From a virus, in IMG/VR virus record IMGVR_UViG_3300017772_000128, positions 1-24,052 of that record: a DNA stretch of 24,052 bases. The stretch is one strand, 5' to 3'. Positions 2,841-10,704 of this stretch are shown here, in pieces. Within the stretch, counting starts at the first letter, position 1. Each line of letters starts with the position of its first letter. A program made the position numbers and the translations under genes. The notes beneath the pieces are model-generated. The model was not told the DNA's origin, ran no database searches, and worked only from the letters and a program-made list of their open reading frames with translations.

Positions 2841-2996
2841 ATGGAATTATCAAACATTGACTGGACTACTTTAATTTGGTCACTAATAGCAATTTTCGAA
2901 GTAATTGTTAGACTTACACCGTCTGAAAAAGACAACTCATTATTAAATAAGGTTATTTGGTTTATCGATAAAGTAGTACCAAACAGAACCAAGTAA
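2841..2996 (+). CDS. Small membrane protein of the lysis region, 51 aa
   Basis: I chose the ATG at 2841 (MELSNIDWTT) over the in-frame ATG at 2811, because 2811 lies inside the peptidase gene and would add an unlikely leader; the A/T leader before 2841 suits local starts. A hydrophobic helix (about residues 10-23, LIWSLIAIFEVIVR) is followed by a polar segment and an amphipathic C-terminal helix (LLNKVIWFIDKVVPN). The pattern is familiar from Bacteroidota phage lysis and tail-end regions. It may be a second holin, antiholin or spanin-like peptide. The stop overlaps the next ATG (TAATG). Confidence 0.7.
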   Translation: MELSNIDWTTLIWSLIAIFEVIVRLTPSEKDNSLLNKVIWFIDKVVPNRTK

Positions 2997-3715
2997 TGCG
3001 TAATAACCGTTATAGGTTAAAACCACACGAAATAGAAGTATTAAATAAACTACGTTCAGAACCAAAAAGAAACGTATTAGTTATAGGTGACTTACACTGT
3101 CCTTTTGACTTAGACGAATATTTAGACTTCTGTAAAGAACAGTACGTTAAATACTCTTGTAACGAAGTTGTATTTATAGGTGACGTTATAGATAATCACT
3201 ATAGTAGTTATCACGAAACAGACGCCGACGGAATGGGTGGAGGTGAAGAACTAGACTTTGCTATAAAACGAATTGCAAGGTGGTATGAAGCGTTTCCTAA
3301 AGCTACAGTTATTATAGGAAACCACGACAGACTTATAATGCGTAAAGCACAAACAAGCGCAATACCGAAGAAGTGGATAAAGTCTTATAAAGAAGTCTTA
3401 GAAGTGCCTAAATGGAATTTTAAGGTATCTTACGAATTAGACAACGTACAATATTTACACGGTGAAGGTGGTACTGCACGAACAAAATGTCGTGCTGATC
3501 TTATGAACACAGTACAAGGACACTTACATACACAATGTTATACAGAAAACTATGTAGGTAAAAACTTTCGTATTTTTGGTATGCAAGTAGGTTGTGGTAT
3601 TGACTTTTCTAGCTATTCTTTTGCTTATGCTAAGGCGGGTAAAAAACCAGCTATAGCGTGTTCGGTAGTATTAGAGAACGGAACAGTACCAATAAACCTT
3701 TTAATGTCTTTATAG
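2996..3715 (+). CDS. Calcineurin-like metallophosphoesterase
   Basis: All signature blocks of the metallophosphoesterase fold are present in order: GDLHCP (31-36, metal ligands D32 and H34), GDVID (62-66, D63), GNHD (108-111, N109 and H110), HGEGG (155-159) and GHLH (175-178). The enzyme should bind two metal ions and hydrolyse phosphoesters such as nucleic acid ends, cyclic nucleotides or nucleotides. The substrate cannot be told from sequence. At 239 residues it is a single catalytic domain without a membrane or secretion signal. It is the last gene before the 3716-3877 gap, so it is probably expressed with the late genes although its role is enzymatic. Phage relatives are often listed as phosphoesterases of unknown target. 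Confidence 0.9.
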   Translation: MRNNRYRLKPHEIEVLNKLRSEPKRNVLVIGDLHCPFDLDEYLDFCKEQYVKYSCNEVVFIGDVIDNHYSSYHETDADGMGGGEELDFAIKRIARWYEAFPKATVIIGNHDRLIMRKAQTSAIPKKWIKSYKEVLEVPKWNFKVSYELDNVQYLHGEGGTARTKCRADLMNTVQGHLHTQCYTENYVGKNFRIFGMQVGCGIDFSSYSFAYAKAGKKPAIACSVVLENGTVPINLLMSL

Positions 3716-3739
3716 GTACGTTTTAAGACACTTTCGTAC
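3716..3739 (+). terminator. Weak hairpin just after the late block
   Basis: Arms GTACG (3716-3720) and CGTAC (3735-3739) begin within a base of the phosphoesterase stop. A G-T pair can extend the stem, and a small inner AAG/CTT pairing is possible in the loop. The stem is short and only an ATTTTAAT stretch follows, so termination here is uncertain. Confidence 0.25.
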
Positions 3740-3765
3740 TATTTTAATACAAACACACTACAGAA

Positions 3766-3786
3766 GTATCTAAACTTATTAGATAC
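3766..3786 (+). terminator. Perfect 8-bp hairpin in the intergenic gap (terminator or operator)
   Basis: Arms GTATCTAA (3766-3773) and TTAGATAC (3779-3786) are perfectly complementary with a 5-base loop (ACTTA). No T-run follows, so it is not a classical intrinsic terminator. It lies between the convergence of late transcription and the promoter at 3841, which suits either transcript-end formation or a protein-binding dyad. This gap (3716-3877) holds no gene that I can support. Confidence 0.5.
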
Positions 3787-3840
3787 AAAATCCTTATAAA
3801 CACCCTAAATGTTAATAACTTTTAAATAATTTTGTTTAAA

Positions 3841-3873
3841 TTTGTGTTAGTAATAAAATAATTACTATATTTG
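3841..3873 (+). promoter_or_regulatory. Host-type (Bacteroidota sigma) promoter for the early genes
   Basis: TTTG at 3841-3844 and TATATTTG at 3866-3873 match the Bacteroidota -33 TTTG and -7 TAnnTTTG boxes with a 21-base spacer. The box ends 4 bases before the ATG at 3878, so transcription should begin at or near that codon. It lies in the only large gap and faces the early genes. Confidence 0.7.
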
Positions 3874-5594: not shown

Positions 5595-6115
5595 TGATTT
5601 TAGAAGGAATAACGGACACAAAAGAAGTAAAAGACCTTTGTAATATTGCTACTGAAATAGTAGGACTAGAACAAGGTTCTTTAACTTCTAAGTCAAGGAA
5701 GGAGCCGTACGCTTTAGCAAGACAAGTAGTAGCGAATATATGTTTAAAAAATGGAATACATTTCGTTACAATAGCTAAGGTGTTAAACCGTGACAGATCT
5801 AACATTTACCACTACCAGAAGAAACACGCAGACAACTTTAAACTTTGGGCACAATACAGAAACCTATTTACTAAAGTATTTAATGTTTATAAGGAAAGTA
5901 AAAAAGAACAAAAGACTTTTTTAACTAAACAAGACTTACGTAACCACTTGTTAAGTAACGGAGTTAAAACCTCGACAGGTGAAGTATTTATTATTGTTAA
6001 AAGTGGTGTGTTAAAAACTTCTATAAGAACTTCTTATAAAGACTTTAGTAATCAATTAGAAAAGATTAGAATTGCTTTATTAGATTATCGATTTAGTTTA
6101 GACGTACAAATATGA
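5594..6115 (+). CDS. DnaA domain IV-like DNA-binding protein
   Basis: Residues about 18-78 (EIVGLEQGSLTSKSRK, ALARQVVANICLKN, FVTIAKVLNRDRSNIYHYQKKH) follow the layout of the C-terminal DNA-binding domain of DnaA: the basic KSRK loop, a helix beginning ALARQ, then a helix-turn-helix in which NRDRSNIYHY stands where DnaA has GGRDHTTVLHA. There is no AAA+ ATPase part. The C-terminal 95 residues are unassigned and helical. The likely role is recognition of a replication origin or regulation of initiation, and the next gene is a replisome-organiser type protein. A transcriptional regulator is the main alternative. The stop overlaps the next ATG (ATGA). Confidence 0.65.
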   Translation: MILEGITDTKEVKDLCNIATEIVGLEQGSLTSKSRKEPYALARQVVANICLKNGIHFVTIAKVLNRDRSNIYHYQKKHADNFKLWAQYRNLFTKVFNVYKESKKEQKTFLTKQDLRNHLLSNGVKTSTGEVFIIVKSGVLKTSIRTSYKDFSNQLEKIRIALLDYRFSLDVQI

Positions 6116-6717
6116 AACCGAACTACTACGCAATACTAACTTCTGAAGTTAGATACAACCAGAACTTAACCCCGAACGCTAAGTTATTATATGCAGAAAT
6201 TACAGCGTTAATAAATATGAACGGGGTTTGTTTTGCTAGTAATAGTTACTTCGCAAACCTTTACGGAAAAACTAAAACCACAATTAGTAAATGGGTAAGT
6301 GAATTAGTTAAAGAAGGTTTTATAGAAATATCTTTTACATACAAAGAAGGTAGCAAAGAAATCGACAATAGGTATATAAGAATTATTAAAGGGGGTGTTG
6401 TTAAAAAGGTCAATACCCCCCTTGTCAAAAAGTTAAAAGATAATACTACAATACTTAATAATAATACTACGTATAGTAATAGTAAACCCTCTGTTGAAGA
6501 AATTAAACAATATTGTTTAGAACGTAACAACGGAATAGACGCAGAACAATTTTTTGACTTTTACGAAAGTAAGAATTGGTTTGTAGGTAAAAACAAAATG
6601 AAGAACTGGCAGGCGGCGGTTAGAACGTGGGAAAAACGAAAACAACAAAACCCTACATCTAAAATAGACCAACAGCTAGACAATTATAATAACGCAAAAA
6701 AACATTTAGGACTATGA
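6112..6717 (+). CDS. Replisome organiser / helix-turn-helix replication protein
   Basis: Residues 1-75 form a winged-helix type domain of the HTH_36 kind (YYAILTSEVRYNQNLTPNAK, FASNSYFANLYGKTKTTISK, WVSELVKEGFIEI), as in phage replication initiators. Residues 90-125 are a low-complexity linker (GGVVKKVNTPLVKKL, then N/T-rich). The C-terminal part (IDAEQFFDFYESKNWFVGKN, then WQAAVRTWEKR) matches the tail domain of such organisers, which loads the helicase. By analogy with lambda O the origin may lie inside the gene, and a striking hairpin with repeats is found in the linker. The helicase or its loader is not obvious nearby, so the phage probably borrows the host helicase. ATGA overlaps both neighbours. 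Confidence 0.75.
   Translation: MKPNYYAILTSEVRYNQNLTPNAKLLYAEITALINMNGVCFASNSYFANLYGKTKTTISKWVSELVKEGFIEISFTYKEGSKEIDNRYIRIIKGGVVKKVNTPLVKKLKDNTTILNNNTTYSNSKPSVEEIKQYCLERNNGIDAEQFFDFYESKNWFVGKNKMKNWQAAVRTWEKRKQQNPTSKIDQQLDNYNNAKKHLGL
6391..6434 (+). repeat. Origin-like hairpin and iteron pair inside the replication gene
   Basis: GGGGGTGTTG (6391-6400) pairs with CAATACCCCC (6411-6420), a 10-bp stem with one G-T pair and a 10-base loop. Two 13-mers, TTGTTAAAAAGGT (6398-6410) and TTGTCAAAAAGTT (6422-6434), match at 11 of 13 positions and are spaced 24 bases apart. The G/C-rich arms stand out in this AT-rich genome. The position in the initiator gene recalls the lambda origin. The function is inferred. 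Confidence 0.5.
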
Positions 6718-7361
6718 AAATATTAAATTTATATGCGTGTTTAGGTGGCAACAGATACAAATGGAATGAAGTAAAAAGTGATATTGAAGTAACGGCAGTA
6801 GAATTAGATACTGAACTAGCAAGGTTATATCAAGATCGGTTTCCTAACGATAAAGTAATAATAGCAGACGCACATAAATACTTACTAGAAAATTATAAAG
6901 AATACGATTTTATTTGGAGTTCTCCTCCTTGTCCGACACACTCAAAAGCTAGGTATTGGGCGATAGGTGCAAATGGTAAAAACCCTATTTACCCAAATAT
7001 GCAACTTTACGAAGAAATTATATTTTTAGAACACCATTTCAAAGGTAAGTATGTAGTAGAAAATGTTATACCTTATTACGAACCTATGTTAAACCCTAAA
7101 AAAAGAGGTAGACATTTATACTGGACAAACTTTAATTTATCAAATTTTTTAAATTATAGAACTTTTAGTGTCTGCCAAGGAAAAGATGAGTTAAAAAGAT
7201 TATGCAAGTTTCATAATTACAACTTCAATAAATATAAAGGAACACAAAAAAAATTAAAAATAGCTAGAAACCTGGTAGATTACGAAGCGGGTAAAACAAT
7301 ACTAGAAACTGCTTTAGGAATAATAAATAACAACAACAAAGAACAAACTAAACTATTTTAA
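6714..7361 (+). CDS. C5-cytosine DNA methyltransferase-like protein (first of two)
   Basis: The 215-residue protein shows a SAM-binding motif I variant (LNLYACLGGNRYKW, residues 4-17), an acidic VEL after strand 2 (E30), the catalytic motif IV PPC (71-73; C73 in SSPPCPTHSK) and motif VI ENV (116-118). Position 132-139 (GRHLYWTN) resembles the later conserved block. It is much shorter than typical bacterial C5 enzymes (300-400 residues) and has little room for a target-recognition domain. It probably methylates cytosines in phage DNA as protection from host restriction. The target sequence cannot be read from the protein. The start overlaps the previous stop (ATGA). Confidence 0.75.
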   Translation: MKILNLYACLGGNRYKWNEVKSDIEVTAVELDTELARLYQDRFPNDKVIIADAHKYLLENYKEYDFIWSSPPCPTHSKARYWAIGANGKNPIYPNMQLYEEIIFLEHHFKGKYVVENVIPYYEPMLNPKKRGRHLYWTNFNLSNFLNYRTFSVCQGKDELKRLCKFHNYNFNKYKGTQKKLKIARNLVDYEAGKTILETALGIINNNNKEQTKLF

Positions 7362-7619: not shown

Positions 7620-7730
7620 ATGAACTTAGAAGAATACAACAAAAAGAAAAGAAAAGAATATTACACAAACGTAATACTTTCAATTTTAATTTATATTATT
7701 GTAGGTATATTAATATCGAAATTAATATGA
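7620..7730 (+). CDS. Small single-pass membrane peptide, 36 aa
   Basis: The ATG lies 2 bases after the previous stop and the stop overlaps the next ATG (ATGA). A charged N-terminus (MNLEEYNKKKRKEYY) precedes one hydrophobic helix (VILSILIYIIVGILIS). By the positive-inside rule the basic end should stay in the cytoplasm. Function unknown. Confidence 0.55.
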   Translation: MNLEEYNKKKRKEYYTNVILSILIYIIVGILISKLI

Positions 7731-8101
7731 AAATAAAAGAAATAGAAACTTCACAACTCAAGTTAAAATGTTTAGATCTTATAACTAAGACTTTTGTAGA
7801 ACTTGGACAAGTAAAAGACGACAAGACTTTAGCAATACTTGCACAGACTTTAGCTACAGACCTTTTAGAAGACTTTCCTAACTTGACCTTCGAAGACATA
7901 GTACAGTCTTTTAGAAACGGTGTTAGACATACAGACACCTTTGTATTGAACGTACAGACATATTACAAGTGGATAAAAGCACACAGGGCTGTAATTTGGA
8001 ATAACGAAGGTAAAGAACACACAGACAAAAGACTAAGATACAGAAGTAGAAAAGGTACAGGACTTAACAAAATAGAAAACAAAATAAATTTAATAAAATG
8101 A
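7727..8101 (+). CDS. Conserved phage protein of unknown function, 124 aa
   Basis: Pattern residues DLLEDFPNLTFEDIVQSFRN (about 46-65), then GVRHTDTFVLNVQTYYKWIK, match a helical family I have seen in replication regions of Bacteroidota phages, where a conserved NV-x-T-(Y/F)-x-KW core follows a helix. The tail is basic (KRLRYRSRKG). A helicase-loader-like role would suit its place near the organiser but is speculation. ATGA overlaps link it to both neighbours. Confidence 0.65.
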   Translation: MKIKEIETSQLKLKCLDLITKTFVELGQVKDDKTLAILAQTLATDLLEDFPNLTFEDIVQSFRNGVRHTDTFVLNVQTYYKWIKAHRAVIWNNEGKEHTDKRLRYRSRKGTGLNKIENKINLIK

Positions 8102-8259
8102 ACGAAGAACTTAACCCTGTAAGTAAAGCACGTATAATAGTAGATACTTTAACAGAAGACGTTAGACTACAAATTAAATTGTTAGAAATACTTACAAGGA
8201 ATTTAACAGGTGAAGAAATAAATAAACTTTATGAAAGTTTTAGAACTGTTTGCAGGTAG
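8098..8259 (+). CDS. Small helical protein, 53 aa, overlapping the second methyltransferase
   Basis: The ATG overlaps the previous stop (ATGA), and the ORF runs 29 bases into the following methyltransferase gene in another frame. The product is helical and charged (VSKARIIVDTLTEDVRLQIK, EILTRNLTGEEINKLYES). Placement directly before the methyltransferase suggests translational coupling. It could be a small regulator of the methyltransferase-nuclease pair. That is inference, because no DNA-binding motif is certain. Confidence 0.5.
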   Translation: MNEELNPVSKARIIVDTLTEDVRLQIKLLEILTRNLTGEEINKLYESFRTVCR

Positions 8260-8857
8260 TCGTTCATTTGGTAAAGTAGCCGAAAAGTTTGGTTTAGAAG
8301 TGTTTAGTGTAGATATAAACGACTTTAAAAATATAGACTATATTACAGACATTTTAGAATTTGACTATAGTAAAGTACCATTTAAACCAGATATAATTTG
8401 GGCAAGCCCACCTTGTACGTATTTTAGTGTAGCAAGTATAGGACACCACTGGCACGAAGACCACACACCAAAAACAGAAGAAGCTATTTTAGGAATGCAA
8501 ATACTTAATAAAACTTTAGAAATAATAGAACACTACAAACCAGACTATTATTTTATAGAAAACCCTGTCGGCAAAATGCGTAGAAAAATAAAAGGTATTA
8601 ATCGTACAACAGTTACGTATTGTTCTTATGGTGATAACAGAATGAAACCTACGGACATTTGGAGCAATCATATTTACGATATATTTAATACTGAAGGTTG
8701 GCGACCTAAACCACAATGTTACGCAGGAAATACAAAGTGCCACCACGAAGCAGCCCCAAGAGGTTCTAAAACAGGAACACAAGGATTAAAAAATAACTAC
8801 GAACGAAGTAAGATACCAGAACAATTACTAATAGAAATAATAGCTAGTACACTATAA
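8231..8857 (+). CDS. C5-cytosine DNA methyltransferase-like protein (second of two)
   Basis: The 208-residue protein has motif I (VLELFAGSRSFGK, residues 3-15), D28 after strand 2 (SVDIN), motif IV ASPPCTYFS with candidate nucleophile C62, and a motif VI variant ENPVGKMR (110-117) where most enzymes have ENV. A Cys/His-containing segment (KPQCYAGNTKCHHEA, about 155-169) is unusual and may bind metal. It is only distantly like the first methyltransferase here, so this is not a simple duplication. The role is probably base methylation of phage DNA. A nuclease-like gene follows 7 bases after the stop, which would suit a restriction-modification pair. Confidence 0.7.
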   Translation: MKVLELFAGSRSFGKVAEKFGLEVFSVDINDFKNIDYITDILEFDYSKVPFKPDIIWASPPCTYFSVASIGHHWHEDHTPKTEEAILGMQILNKTLEIIEHYKPDYYFIENPVGKMRRKIKGINRTTVTYCSYGDNRMKPTDIWSNHIYDIFNTEGWRPKPQCYAGNTKCHHEAAPRGSKTGTQGLKNNYERSKIPEQLLIEIIASTL

Positions 8858-8864
8858 AAATAAT

Positions 8865-9365
8865 ATGTTAAAACGTAATATAACATACCCTTATTTGTTT
8901 CATAAAATAGCTAAAGAACTTTCTACAGATCGTACAAAAGGTATGTTGAAAAACTATGTAGGTAAAGAATATTACGCAGGTAAAGACACTAAGAAATATA
9001 ACGTACAAGGAATACTTGCAGAACTAATAGCACAAGAATACTTTTTACAAAACGACACAGAATATAAAGCTTTAACATTTTTAGGTACAGAACCAGAAGT
9101 TGAAGCAGACATAGTAGTAGGTAAAAGAAAAATAGACGTTAAATATATACCTAGACACGGCAAACTACTTATTGTTAATTACAATGCACATAACAACAAA
9201 AACAAACAAGTAACGGAATATATGTTTATACAACCTGTAGAACGCTATACTTACGCAACAGCTAAAGCTATTATTTGGTTTGTAAACCACAAAGAAGTAG
9301 ATAAGTGGAAAGTAGAACAACAAACACGAACAAAAGTATATAGTAATAAAATATTAATAAAGTAA
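8865..9365 (+). CDS. PD-(D/E)XK-type nuclease (candidate restriction partner)
   Basis: Residues 49-60 form a helix with a conserved-type acidic residue (GILAELIAQEYF, E53). The core follows as EADIVVGKRKIDVKYI (80-95), reading D82-x8-D91-V-K93, which fits the PD-(D/E)XK metal-binding pattern. The rest is beta/alpha with no other domain. At 166 residues it is near the size of small restriction enzymes, Holliday-junction resolvases or phage end-processing nucleases. It begins 7 bases after a methyltransferase-like gene and ends the early block. What it cuts, and whether it depends on methylation, cannot be read from the sequence. A resolvase or lambda-exonuclease-like role is the alternative. 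Confidence 0.55.
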   Translation: MLKRNITYPYLFHKIAKELSTDRTKGMLKNYVGKEYYAGKDTKKYNVQGILAELIAQEYFLQNDTEYKALTFLGTEPEVEADIVVGKRKIDVKYIPRHGKLLIVNYNAHNNKNKQVTEYMFIQPVERYTYATAKAIIWFVNHKEVDKWKVEQQTRTKVYSNKILIK

Positions 9366-9424: not shown

Positions 9425-9820
9425 GTGAAAAGTATAAGTAAATTAAAAAAGGAGTTAGACAAATGGTTTAGTTTATTTATTAGATTAAGAAACGCAAGTA
9501 AAGACGGAATAGTTGAGTGTTGGACTTGTGGAAAAACAGCACACTATAAAAAGATGCACGCAGGTCACTTTATGTCTAGGAAACACCACGCTACAAGGTG
9601 GAACGAAGACGGGAACGTACAGGTACAATGTCCTAAGTGTAACCTATTCGGACAAGGTGAACAATATACATTTGGTAAACTTATAGACGTTAGGATCGGT
9701 GAAGGTAAGAGTGAAGAACTACAAGAACTAAGTAGAACGACTGTAAAGTATATGCGACACGAATACGAAGATATGATTAAGTTTTATAAAGAAAAAGTAA
9801 ATGCTATTAAAACCGATTAG
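9425..9820 (+). CDS. ninG: NinG-like recombination protein (Rap family)
   Basis: The 131-residue protein shows the NinG hallmarks: an N-terminal helix (LKKELDKWFSLFIRLRNAS), CWTC (32-35), AGHF-x-SR (46-52), a region ending RWNEDGN (58-64) and CPKC (69-72), followed by GEQY. The paired cysteines and histidine make a zinc-binding HNH-like nuclease core. Lambda NinG (Rap) cleaves branched DNA such as D-loops and Holliday structures and supports recombination. Start: only GTG at 9425 keeps the conserved N-terminal helix; the next ATG would remove it. It is separated by a gap and a TTATATTATTGA element from the early block, so it may open a new transcription unit. Confidence 0.8.
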   Translation: MKSISKLKKELDKWFSLFIRLRNASKDGIVECWTCGKTAHYKKMHAGHFMSRKHHATRWNEDGNVQVQCPKCNLFGQGEQYTFGKLIDVRIGEGKSEELQELSRTTVKYMRHEYEDMIKFYKEKVNAIKTD

Positions 9821-10169
9821 TATAAACTACCAACACGAAATAGCTTTACAAGTGTATTTAGATATGATAACTACAACTATAAAAGACGTTACAAAAAACG
9901 AAGACAAATATAAAGACTTTATAGACGTAGCTAATATAATTATAGAACACCACAACAACTATAGAAAAGACGTATTAGTACTTGCGAACTATCAAGACTT
10001 TATAAGTCTAATACCTACACACTTCACAGCTATGTTAAACGGATATTTAACAGGACTAGAAAACGAAAAGAATAGAAATACTGTTAGATTATATAAACAC
10101 TTATTAAGTGAAGAAGGTTATAACTTTATAGAAAAAGTACAAGATATAAAAATTGAACAAGATATATAA
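9801..10169 (+). CDS. Hypothetical helical protein, 122 aa
   Basis: The ATG overlaps the NinG-like gene by 20 bases. The product is almost wholly helical and acidic/basic mixed (EIALQVYLDMITTTIKDVTK, DFIDVANIIIEHHNNYRKDV), with a C-terminal helix overlapping the sigma-like start. No motif is recognised. Its tight coupling to the sigma-like gene (17-base overlap) might mean joint regulation. Confidence 0.6.
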   Translation: MLLKPISINYQHEIALQVYLDMITTTIKDVTKNEDKYKDFIDVANIIIEHHNNYRKDVLVLANYQDFISLIPTHFTAMLNGYLTGLENEKNRNTVRLYKHLLSEEGYNFIEKVQDIKIEQDI

Positions 10170-10704
10170 AATATTAGCAGACCTAAGAAGTCACTTTGTG
10201 AAAATGACTTACGGACTTACTACCGACAAGAACGAAGTAGACGAAGTAGTCCAGGAACTTATGCTTTACTTACTACAGATGAACCCCGACACACTAAAAG
10301 GAATATACGACAAGGACGGAGAAAAGGGTTTAATAAGATACGGAGCAGTAGTAATACGTAGAAGTCTACAAAGTAAAAACAGTCCTTATTATTATAAGTA
10401 TAAAAAATACTACACAAATTTAGCAGGTACTTCTACTTCAACTATTCTTAGTCAAGAAGCTTATCATAAAAGTATTTACAACTTACCAGAAGAAATAGTA
10501 GACAATTACAAATGGAAAAAGTTAGAAGAAATAGATAAAGAGTTAGACGATATGTACTGGTACGACAGGGAACTATTTAAGTTGTACTATTACGAAACGA
10601 ATACATTAGATAGTTTAGCAAAGAAAACAGGAATAAGTAGAAACAGTTTATTTACTACAATAGATAACGTAAGACAATTACTTAAAGATAAATTAAATGA
10701 ATAG
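10153..10704 (+). CDS. Sigma-factor-like protein (phage RNA polymerase specificity factor)
   Basis: Residues 24-44 (TDKNEVDEVVQELMLYLLQM) read like the helix of sigma region 2 that binds the polymerase clamp. Residues 136-180 (YDRELFKLYYYETNTLDSLA, then KTGISRNSLFTTIDNVRQLL) form the helix-turn-helix of region 4. The 183-residue layout, with the linker between them, suits ECF-type or T4 gp55-like small sigma factors. TTG at 10153 is the only start that covers the first helix and it overlaps the previous gene. Later in-frame starts are GTG 10198 and ATG 10204. Role inferred: redirect host polymerase to middle or late promoters, perhaps the TTATATTATATA motif. A DNA-binding terminase-like regulator is the alternative. 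Confidence 0.6.
   Translation: MNKIYKILADLRSHFVKMTYGLTTDKNEVDEVVQELMLYLLQMNPDTLKGIYDKDGEKGLIRYGAVVIRRSLQSKNSPYYYKYKKYYTNLAGTSTSTILSQEAYHKSIYNLPEEIVDNYKWKKLEEIDKELDDMYWYDRELFKLYYYETNTLDSLAKKTGISRNSLFTTIDNVRQLLKDKLNE

Follow-up and report, generated by a model that had tools for sequence, protein, structure and literature searches.

The PD-(D/E)XK superfamily includes restriction enzymes, Hjc and VRR-NUC resolvases, and RecB/Cas4-type nucleases, whose members carry a glutamate in a helix, an aspartate before a strand, and a D-x-K motif in the next strand. The fold is common among restriction enzymes. In type II restriction-modification systems, the nuclease is linked to its cognate methyltransferase and is not kept without this protection, and a C protein with an HTH may accompany the pair. 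Nucleases that degrade host DNA are often encoded by lytic phages, and phage recombination modules carry nucleases of their own (NinG/Rap, PDDEXK_15/RusA-like, VRR-NUC). Phages also encode solitary methyltransferases: in lactococcal 936-type phages, orphan methyltransferases located in a replication or packaging region were shown by expression, with SMRT sequencing alongside, to protect against restriction enzymes (PMC4190342).

Here we analyze a 24,052-base virus record, taken whole and referred to below as the window. In it a methyltransferase gene (MT2) and a PD-(D/E)XK-like gene (NUC) lie side by side, as in a type II pair, and a preliminary description had proposed that they might form a compact restriction-modification unit. 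Unlike the genes of a type II pair, however, NUC and MT2 are not co-inherited, and each is kept without the other. The kind of neighborhood that NUC occupies is that of the phage recombination-module nucleases, although it has no detectable sequence homology to those families.

Results

The window's terminase has its closest relatives (64%; Nonlabens phage P12024S/L) in phages of marine flavobacteria, which makes a member of the Flavobacteriia the probable host. A replication/recombination module occupies 5.1 to 10.7 kb of the window and comprises, in order, a DnaA-C-like gene, a replication-initiation protein, a first methyltransferase (MT1), a 124-amino-acid (aa) protein, a 53-aa open reading frame (ORF), MT2, NUC, and NinG. 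From the replication-initiation protein through the 122-aa protein that follows NinG, these genes are on the plus strand. The initiation-like protein (6112-6717) is of the HTH_36 type (PF13730, 47.6 bits; phrog_19658, 4.4e-29), and MT1 (6714-7361) is a short C5-methyltransferase (PF00145, 36.4 bits) that the preliminary description did not include. The 124-aa protein (7727-8101) has no assigned function, and its same-position relatives (27 to 82% identity) make it a landmark of synteny ahead of the NUC slot. NinG (9425-9820), a NinG/Rap-type recombination endonuclease, matched PF05766 at 50.8 bits (cutoff, 25.4) and phrog_5034 at 1.2e-26, and synteny marks it as the usual downstream neighbor of NUC. 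In phages with the NUC-NinG arrangement, NinG is followed by a 122-aa protein (9801-10169) that lacks a convincing family match and is placed by synteny. A conserved 183-aa protein with a sigma-factor-like look (10153-10704) comes after these two genes in nearly all NUC-NinG phages; a PHROG search at E 0.001 returned no match to it.

NUC (8865-9365; 166 aa) starts after a 7-base gap from MT2 (8231-8857; 208 aa), whose start is overlapped by the 53-aa ORF (8098-8259), exactly as had been described. Single-sequence searches with NUC gave no convincing match in Pfam, PHROGs, NCBIfam, PADLOC, PDB sequences, GenBank phages, or plasmids, and recovered only copies that are 98% identical. Distant relatives, at 36 to 45% identity, were reached only through viral contigs fetched by way of the flanking genes. 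Alignment-based scans of IMG/VR yielded 49 relatives, while scans of GTDB genomes yielded none; with the window's own, these gave a set of 42 distinct sequences. (Viral contigs compared with the window are given L numbers below.) E53, D82, D91, and K93, the residues singled out in the preliminary description, are invariant in all 42, as are R23, G49, I55, P77, N105, K114, Y119, and F121, and a literal P-D stands ahead of D-x-K in six members. Codon changes in NUC are mostly synonymous (7 synonymous versus 4 nonsynonymous between the window and L002, 17 versus 7 between L188 and L189, and 43 versus 22 between L186 and L190), indicating a protein under purifying selection rather than a chance ORF. 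As judged from these sequence searches, the NUC family is phage specific, has no name, and is absent from the family libraries searched.

The E...D...(D/E)xK active site of the superfamily is thus present in 42 of 42 NUC sequences, and structure prediction, which had been suggested as a check, returned the nuclease core as judged by secondary-structure order. The AF2 model built with 23 family members had a pLDDT of 89.3 and a pTM of 0.87, versus a pLDDT of 35.8 from the single sequence. In the model, E53 falls in a helix (residues 39-62), D82 at the start of a strand (83-85), and D91 and K93 in the following strand (88-94), with further strands at 101-105, 118-127, and 132-141; this predicted alpha-beta order fits the superfamily. 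With the motif invariant and placed on the expected helix and strands, the assignment of NUC to the PD-(D/E)XK superfamily holds and can be taken as established in terms of sequence and predicted structure, although NUC, lacking a convincing match to Pfam, PHROG, NCBIfam, or PDB sequences, makes up a phage family of its own. In a profile comparison, NUC was linked to another phage family of PD-(D/E)XK-like type, and the motifs of the two came into register (probability, 82.5; E, 9.7e-6). We also noted a PD-(D/E)XK-like phage family with a GE...D...IDVKT pattern (L072:2314-2793 and L041:5635-6177), which has a relative in Ruegeria phage RpAliso whose only annotation is hypothetical.

We then considered how NUC and methyltransferases are associated across the relatives. 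A methyltransferase directly adjoins NUC in 12 of the 42 distinct relatives: MT2 in 6, MT1 in 3, a full-length C5 enzyme on the other side in 2, and an N-type enzyme on the other side in 1. In L191, L192, and L202, the gene directly upstream of NUC is MT1. Within 1.6 kb of NUC, a methyltransferase was found in 15 of 42 and none was detected in the remaining 27. By comparison, 18 of 52 NinG genes without NUC have a methyltransferase within 1.6 kb upstream, so the adjacency of NUC to methyltransferases is at the local background level. The partners are also exchanged. NUC of L183 is 99% identical to that of L186 and L188, yet the MT2 proteins of these phages are only 59% identical, and L189, whose NUC is 97 to 98% identical to the NUC of all three, has no adjoining methyltransferase. 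In alignments, the methyltransferase block is cleanly present or absent between preserved flanks (L188 versus L189 and L190; L202 versus L136). When the labels were mapped on the NUC tree by parsimony, the MT2 label had to change four times and the three labels together six times, although resolution is poor at the deep branches of this tree and the starred branches call for fewer changes. The adjoining C5 gene of L213 contains a stop codon (possibly a sequencing error) while NUC is intact, and several 17- to 31-kb records with NUC (L226, L235, L237, and L198 among them) had no PF00145 or PF01555 match; these records may be incomplete, and some methyltransferases fall outside the two families.

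The same independence is seen from the side of MT2. The C5-methyltransferase call of the preliminary description was borne out by matches to PF00145 (30 bits; cutoff, 22) and phrog_757 (1.8e-32) and by PPC (P61 C62) and ENP (E110 N111) motifs at least 97% conserved among 67 homologues. MT2 is short for a C5 enzyme, its PF00145 match spanning profile positions 3-115 of 324. At least 236 relatives occur in viral contigs, few of them next to NUC, and NUC comes next after only 5 of the 59 distinct MT2 genes with downstream sequence. In the sister phages L006 and L010, MT2 is retained at 93 to 95% identity and is followed by an unrelated 134-aa protein, N134 (5624-6028 in both contigs), in place of NUC; the flanking DNA is 83 to 90% identical as far as the slot boundaries. 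The swap of NUC for N134 among close sisters lies exactly between MT2 and NinG. The N134 family (38 sequences), which likewise has no name, shows invariant D30 and E39-x-K41 in 13 aligned members, a PD-(D/E)XK-like arrangement, and also occurs elsewhere in NUC-carrying contigs, for example, L195, L197, L198, and L206. We rejected N134 as a homologue of NUC, as the two have no profile similarity despite the D...E-x-K pattern of N134. As a separate observation, the near-identical phage L002 lacks MT1 and instead encodes nearby (2988-3854) a protein of 288 aa that contains the motif SGGKSS and resembles a PAPS-reductase-type enzyme; similar proteins flank MT2 in L012, L036, and L070.

The 53-aa ORF is real, being 94% identical in L002 to L005 and having relatives at 51 to 53% identity in L011 and L082. 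Searches of Pfam, PHROGs, and NCBIfam matched it neither to an HTH, which a C protein would carry, nor to any regulator, and in L011 its relative is on the downstream side of the methyltransferase; the suggestion that it might regulate MT2 is therefore without support. The location of its relatives with respect to the methyltransferase varies (L011:5624-5809 and L082:3819-3953), and in this the ORF behaves as a small mobile gene would, not as a regulator fixed in place.

We examined the surroundings of NUC in 50 contigs (the window and the 49 relatives). In 24 of them, the gene immediately downstream is NinG. A DnaB-like/AAA ATPase takes this position in 14 (phrog_18375, 4e-45 for L195), most of which, where the contig is long enough, have small conserved proteins upstream along with NinG. 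In three (L243, L244, and L246), a phrog_1770-type Holliday junction resolvase lies directly upstream of NUC; the match was run for L243 and L244, with L246 assigned by its near-identical start, and a DnaB-like helicase precedes the resolvase in L243 and L246. In some relatives, L206, L238, L239, and L241 among them, the nearest neighbors are small or unrelated genes. We suspected RusA for the gene after NUC in L242, but the match was not confirmed. L018 has a PDDEXK_15/RusA-like protein between two methyltransferases, in a place similar to that of NUC. P12024S encodes a VRR-NUC protein a few genes before its terminase; since only the TerL, TerS-like, and phosphoesterase genes matched in a gene-order check, this is a positional parallel to NUC at most. 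By gene content, the neighborhoods of NUC are a replication/recombination context across several phage groups.

Discussion

The arrangement in the window invites a restriction-modification reading, in which NUC would cut the site methylated by MT2 and so exclude competing phages or degrade host DNA. The fold is frequent among restriction enzymes, and the close adjacency, by a 7-base gap or a 4-base overlap, recurs in 11 contigs. Across the relatives, however, NUC is not consistently linked to a methyltransferase, and it persists where the methyltransferase is gone, as in L189 and L190 relative to L188 and in L136 relative to L202. Because linkage is at background, partners are exchanged, whole blocks are lost or gained, MT2 is kept without NUC, and the L213 methyltransferase gene carries a stop, the sequence comparisons do not support NUC and MT2 as a restriction-modification unit, and we give this reading very little chance. 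The preliminary description had named nuclease relatives without a methyltransferase neighbor as what would count against its proposal; they make up most of the family and include L189, and by this loss of the methyltransferase with NUC kept the reading appears already largely refuted. We also set aside a Vsr-like role, as a mismatch nuclease beside a C5 methyltransferase, given that most NUC relatives have no C5 methyltransferase neighbor. MT2 itself is probably an orphan that acts independently of NUC in anti-restriction. Like the lactococcal 936-type orphans it is a solitary phage methyltransferase, but those are N6-adenine enzymes (PMC4190342), whereas MT2 is a 208-aa C5-type protein known from its sequence.

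Of the functions that had been entertained for NUC, service in recombination is the one favored by its neighborhoods. We consider it probable, if well short of certain, that NUC is a DNA-processing nuclease of the phage replication/recombination module that happens to stand beside an independent orphan methyltransferase. As a predicted metal-dependent PD-(D/E)XK DNA nuclease, NUC would cut or trim DNA intermediates of phage replication and recombination, such as branched junctions, flaps, or ends, and may do so together with NinG or a different junction resolvase, or with the replicative helicase. MT2 would mark phage DNA against host restriction and merely fill the neighboring slot. As NUC co-occurs with resolvases and does not replace them, the main junction resolvase may be another enzyme; processing of flaps, ends, or branches seems at least as likely. 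NUC has no sequence or profile match to a characterized recombination nuclease, and gene neighborhood alone cannot name its substrate. Nor is NUC indispensable, as many sister phages do without it (L006 and L010 carry N134 instead).

That same co-occurrence with resolvases of differing families (NinG and phrog_1770) could also mean that NUC is a nuclease-fold DNA-binding or accessory factor that recruits or regulates NinG or another resolvase, with cleavage secondary. The invariance of all four catalytic residues in 42 sequences argues for catalysis, however, and we regard such a factor as unlikely. A nuclease for host-genome degradation or takeover, one that attacks host DNA lacking modification and spares phage DNA protected by other means, would suit a lytic phage, and some relatives have another methyltransferase elsewhere in the record; with no conserved partner to protect phage DNA, and with NUC located among replication and recombination genes, this too strikes us as improbable. 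Still more doubtful is a free-standing homing-type endonuclease inserted between phage genes. The patchy distribution of NUC among close sisters and the exact exchange with N134 are what such an element might leave, but the NinG or helicase neighborhoods are stable across 32 to 60% identity and several phage groups, the slot in L006 and L010 holds another nuclease-like gene rather than being empty, and no intron or intein was seen.

By sequence, then, NUC represents a family not described before, within a known superfamily and in phage surroundings of an ordinary kind. That this family works specifically with differing junction enzymes (NinG/Rap or phrog_1770 resolvases) or with the replicative helicase, and is in that sense a general phage recombination nuclease, is a real possibility, though one we hold only tentatively. 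In phage genomes, a methyltransferase gene next to a nuclease gene can give the appearance of a restriction-modification unit, and comparing co-inheritance with the local background rate is a cheap test of such apparent pairs. A second outcome is a family of predicted phage nucleases, with 42 or more distinct members, whose catalytic residues do not vary, whose structure is predicted with confidence, and which is tied to phage DNA replication and recombination.
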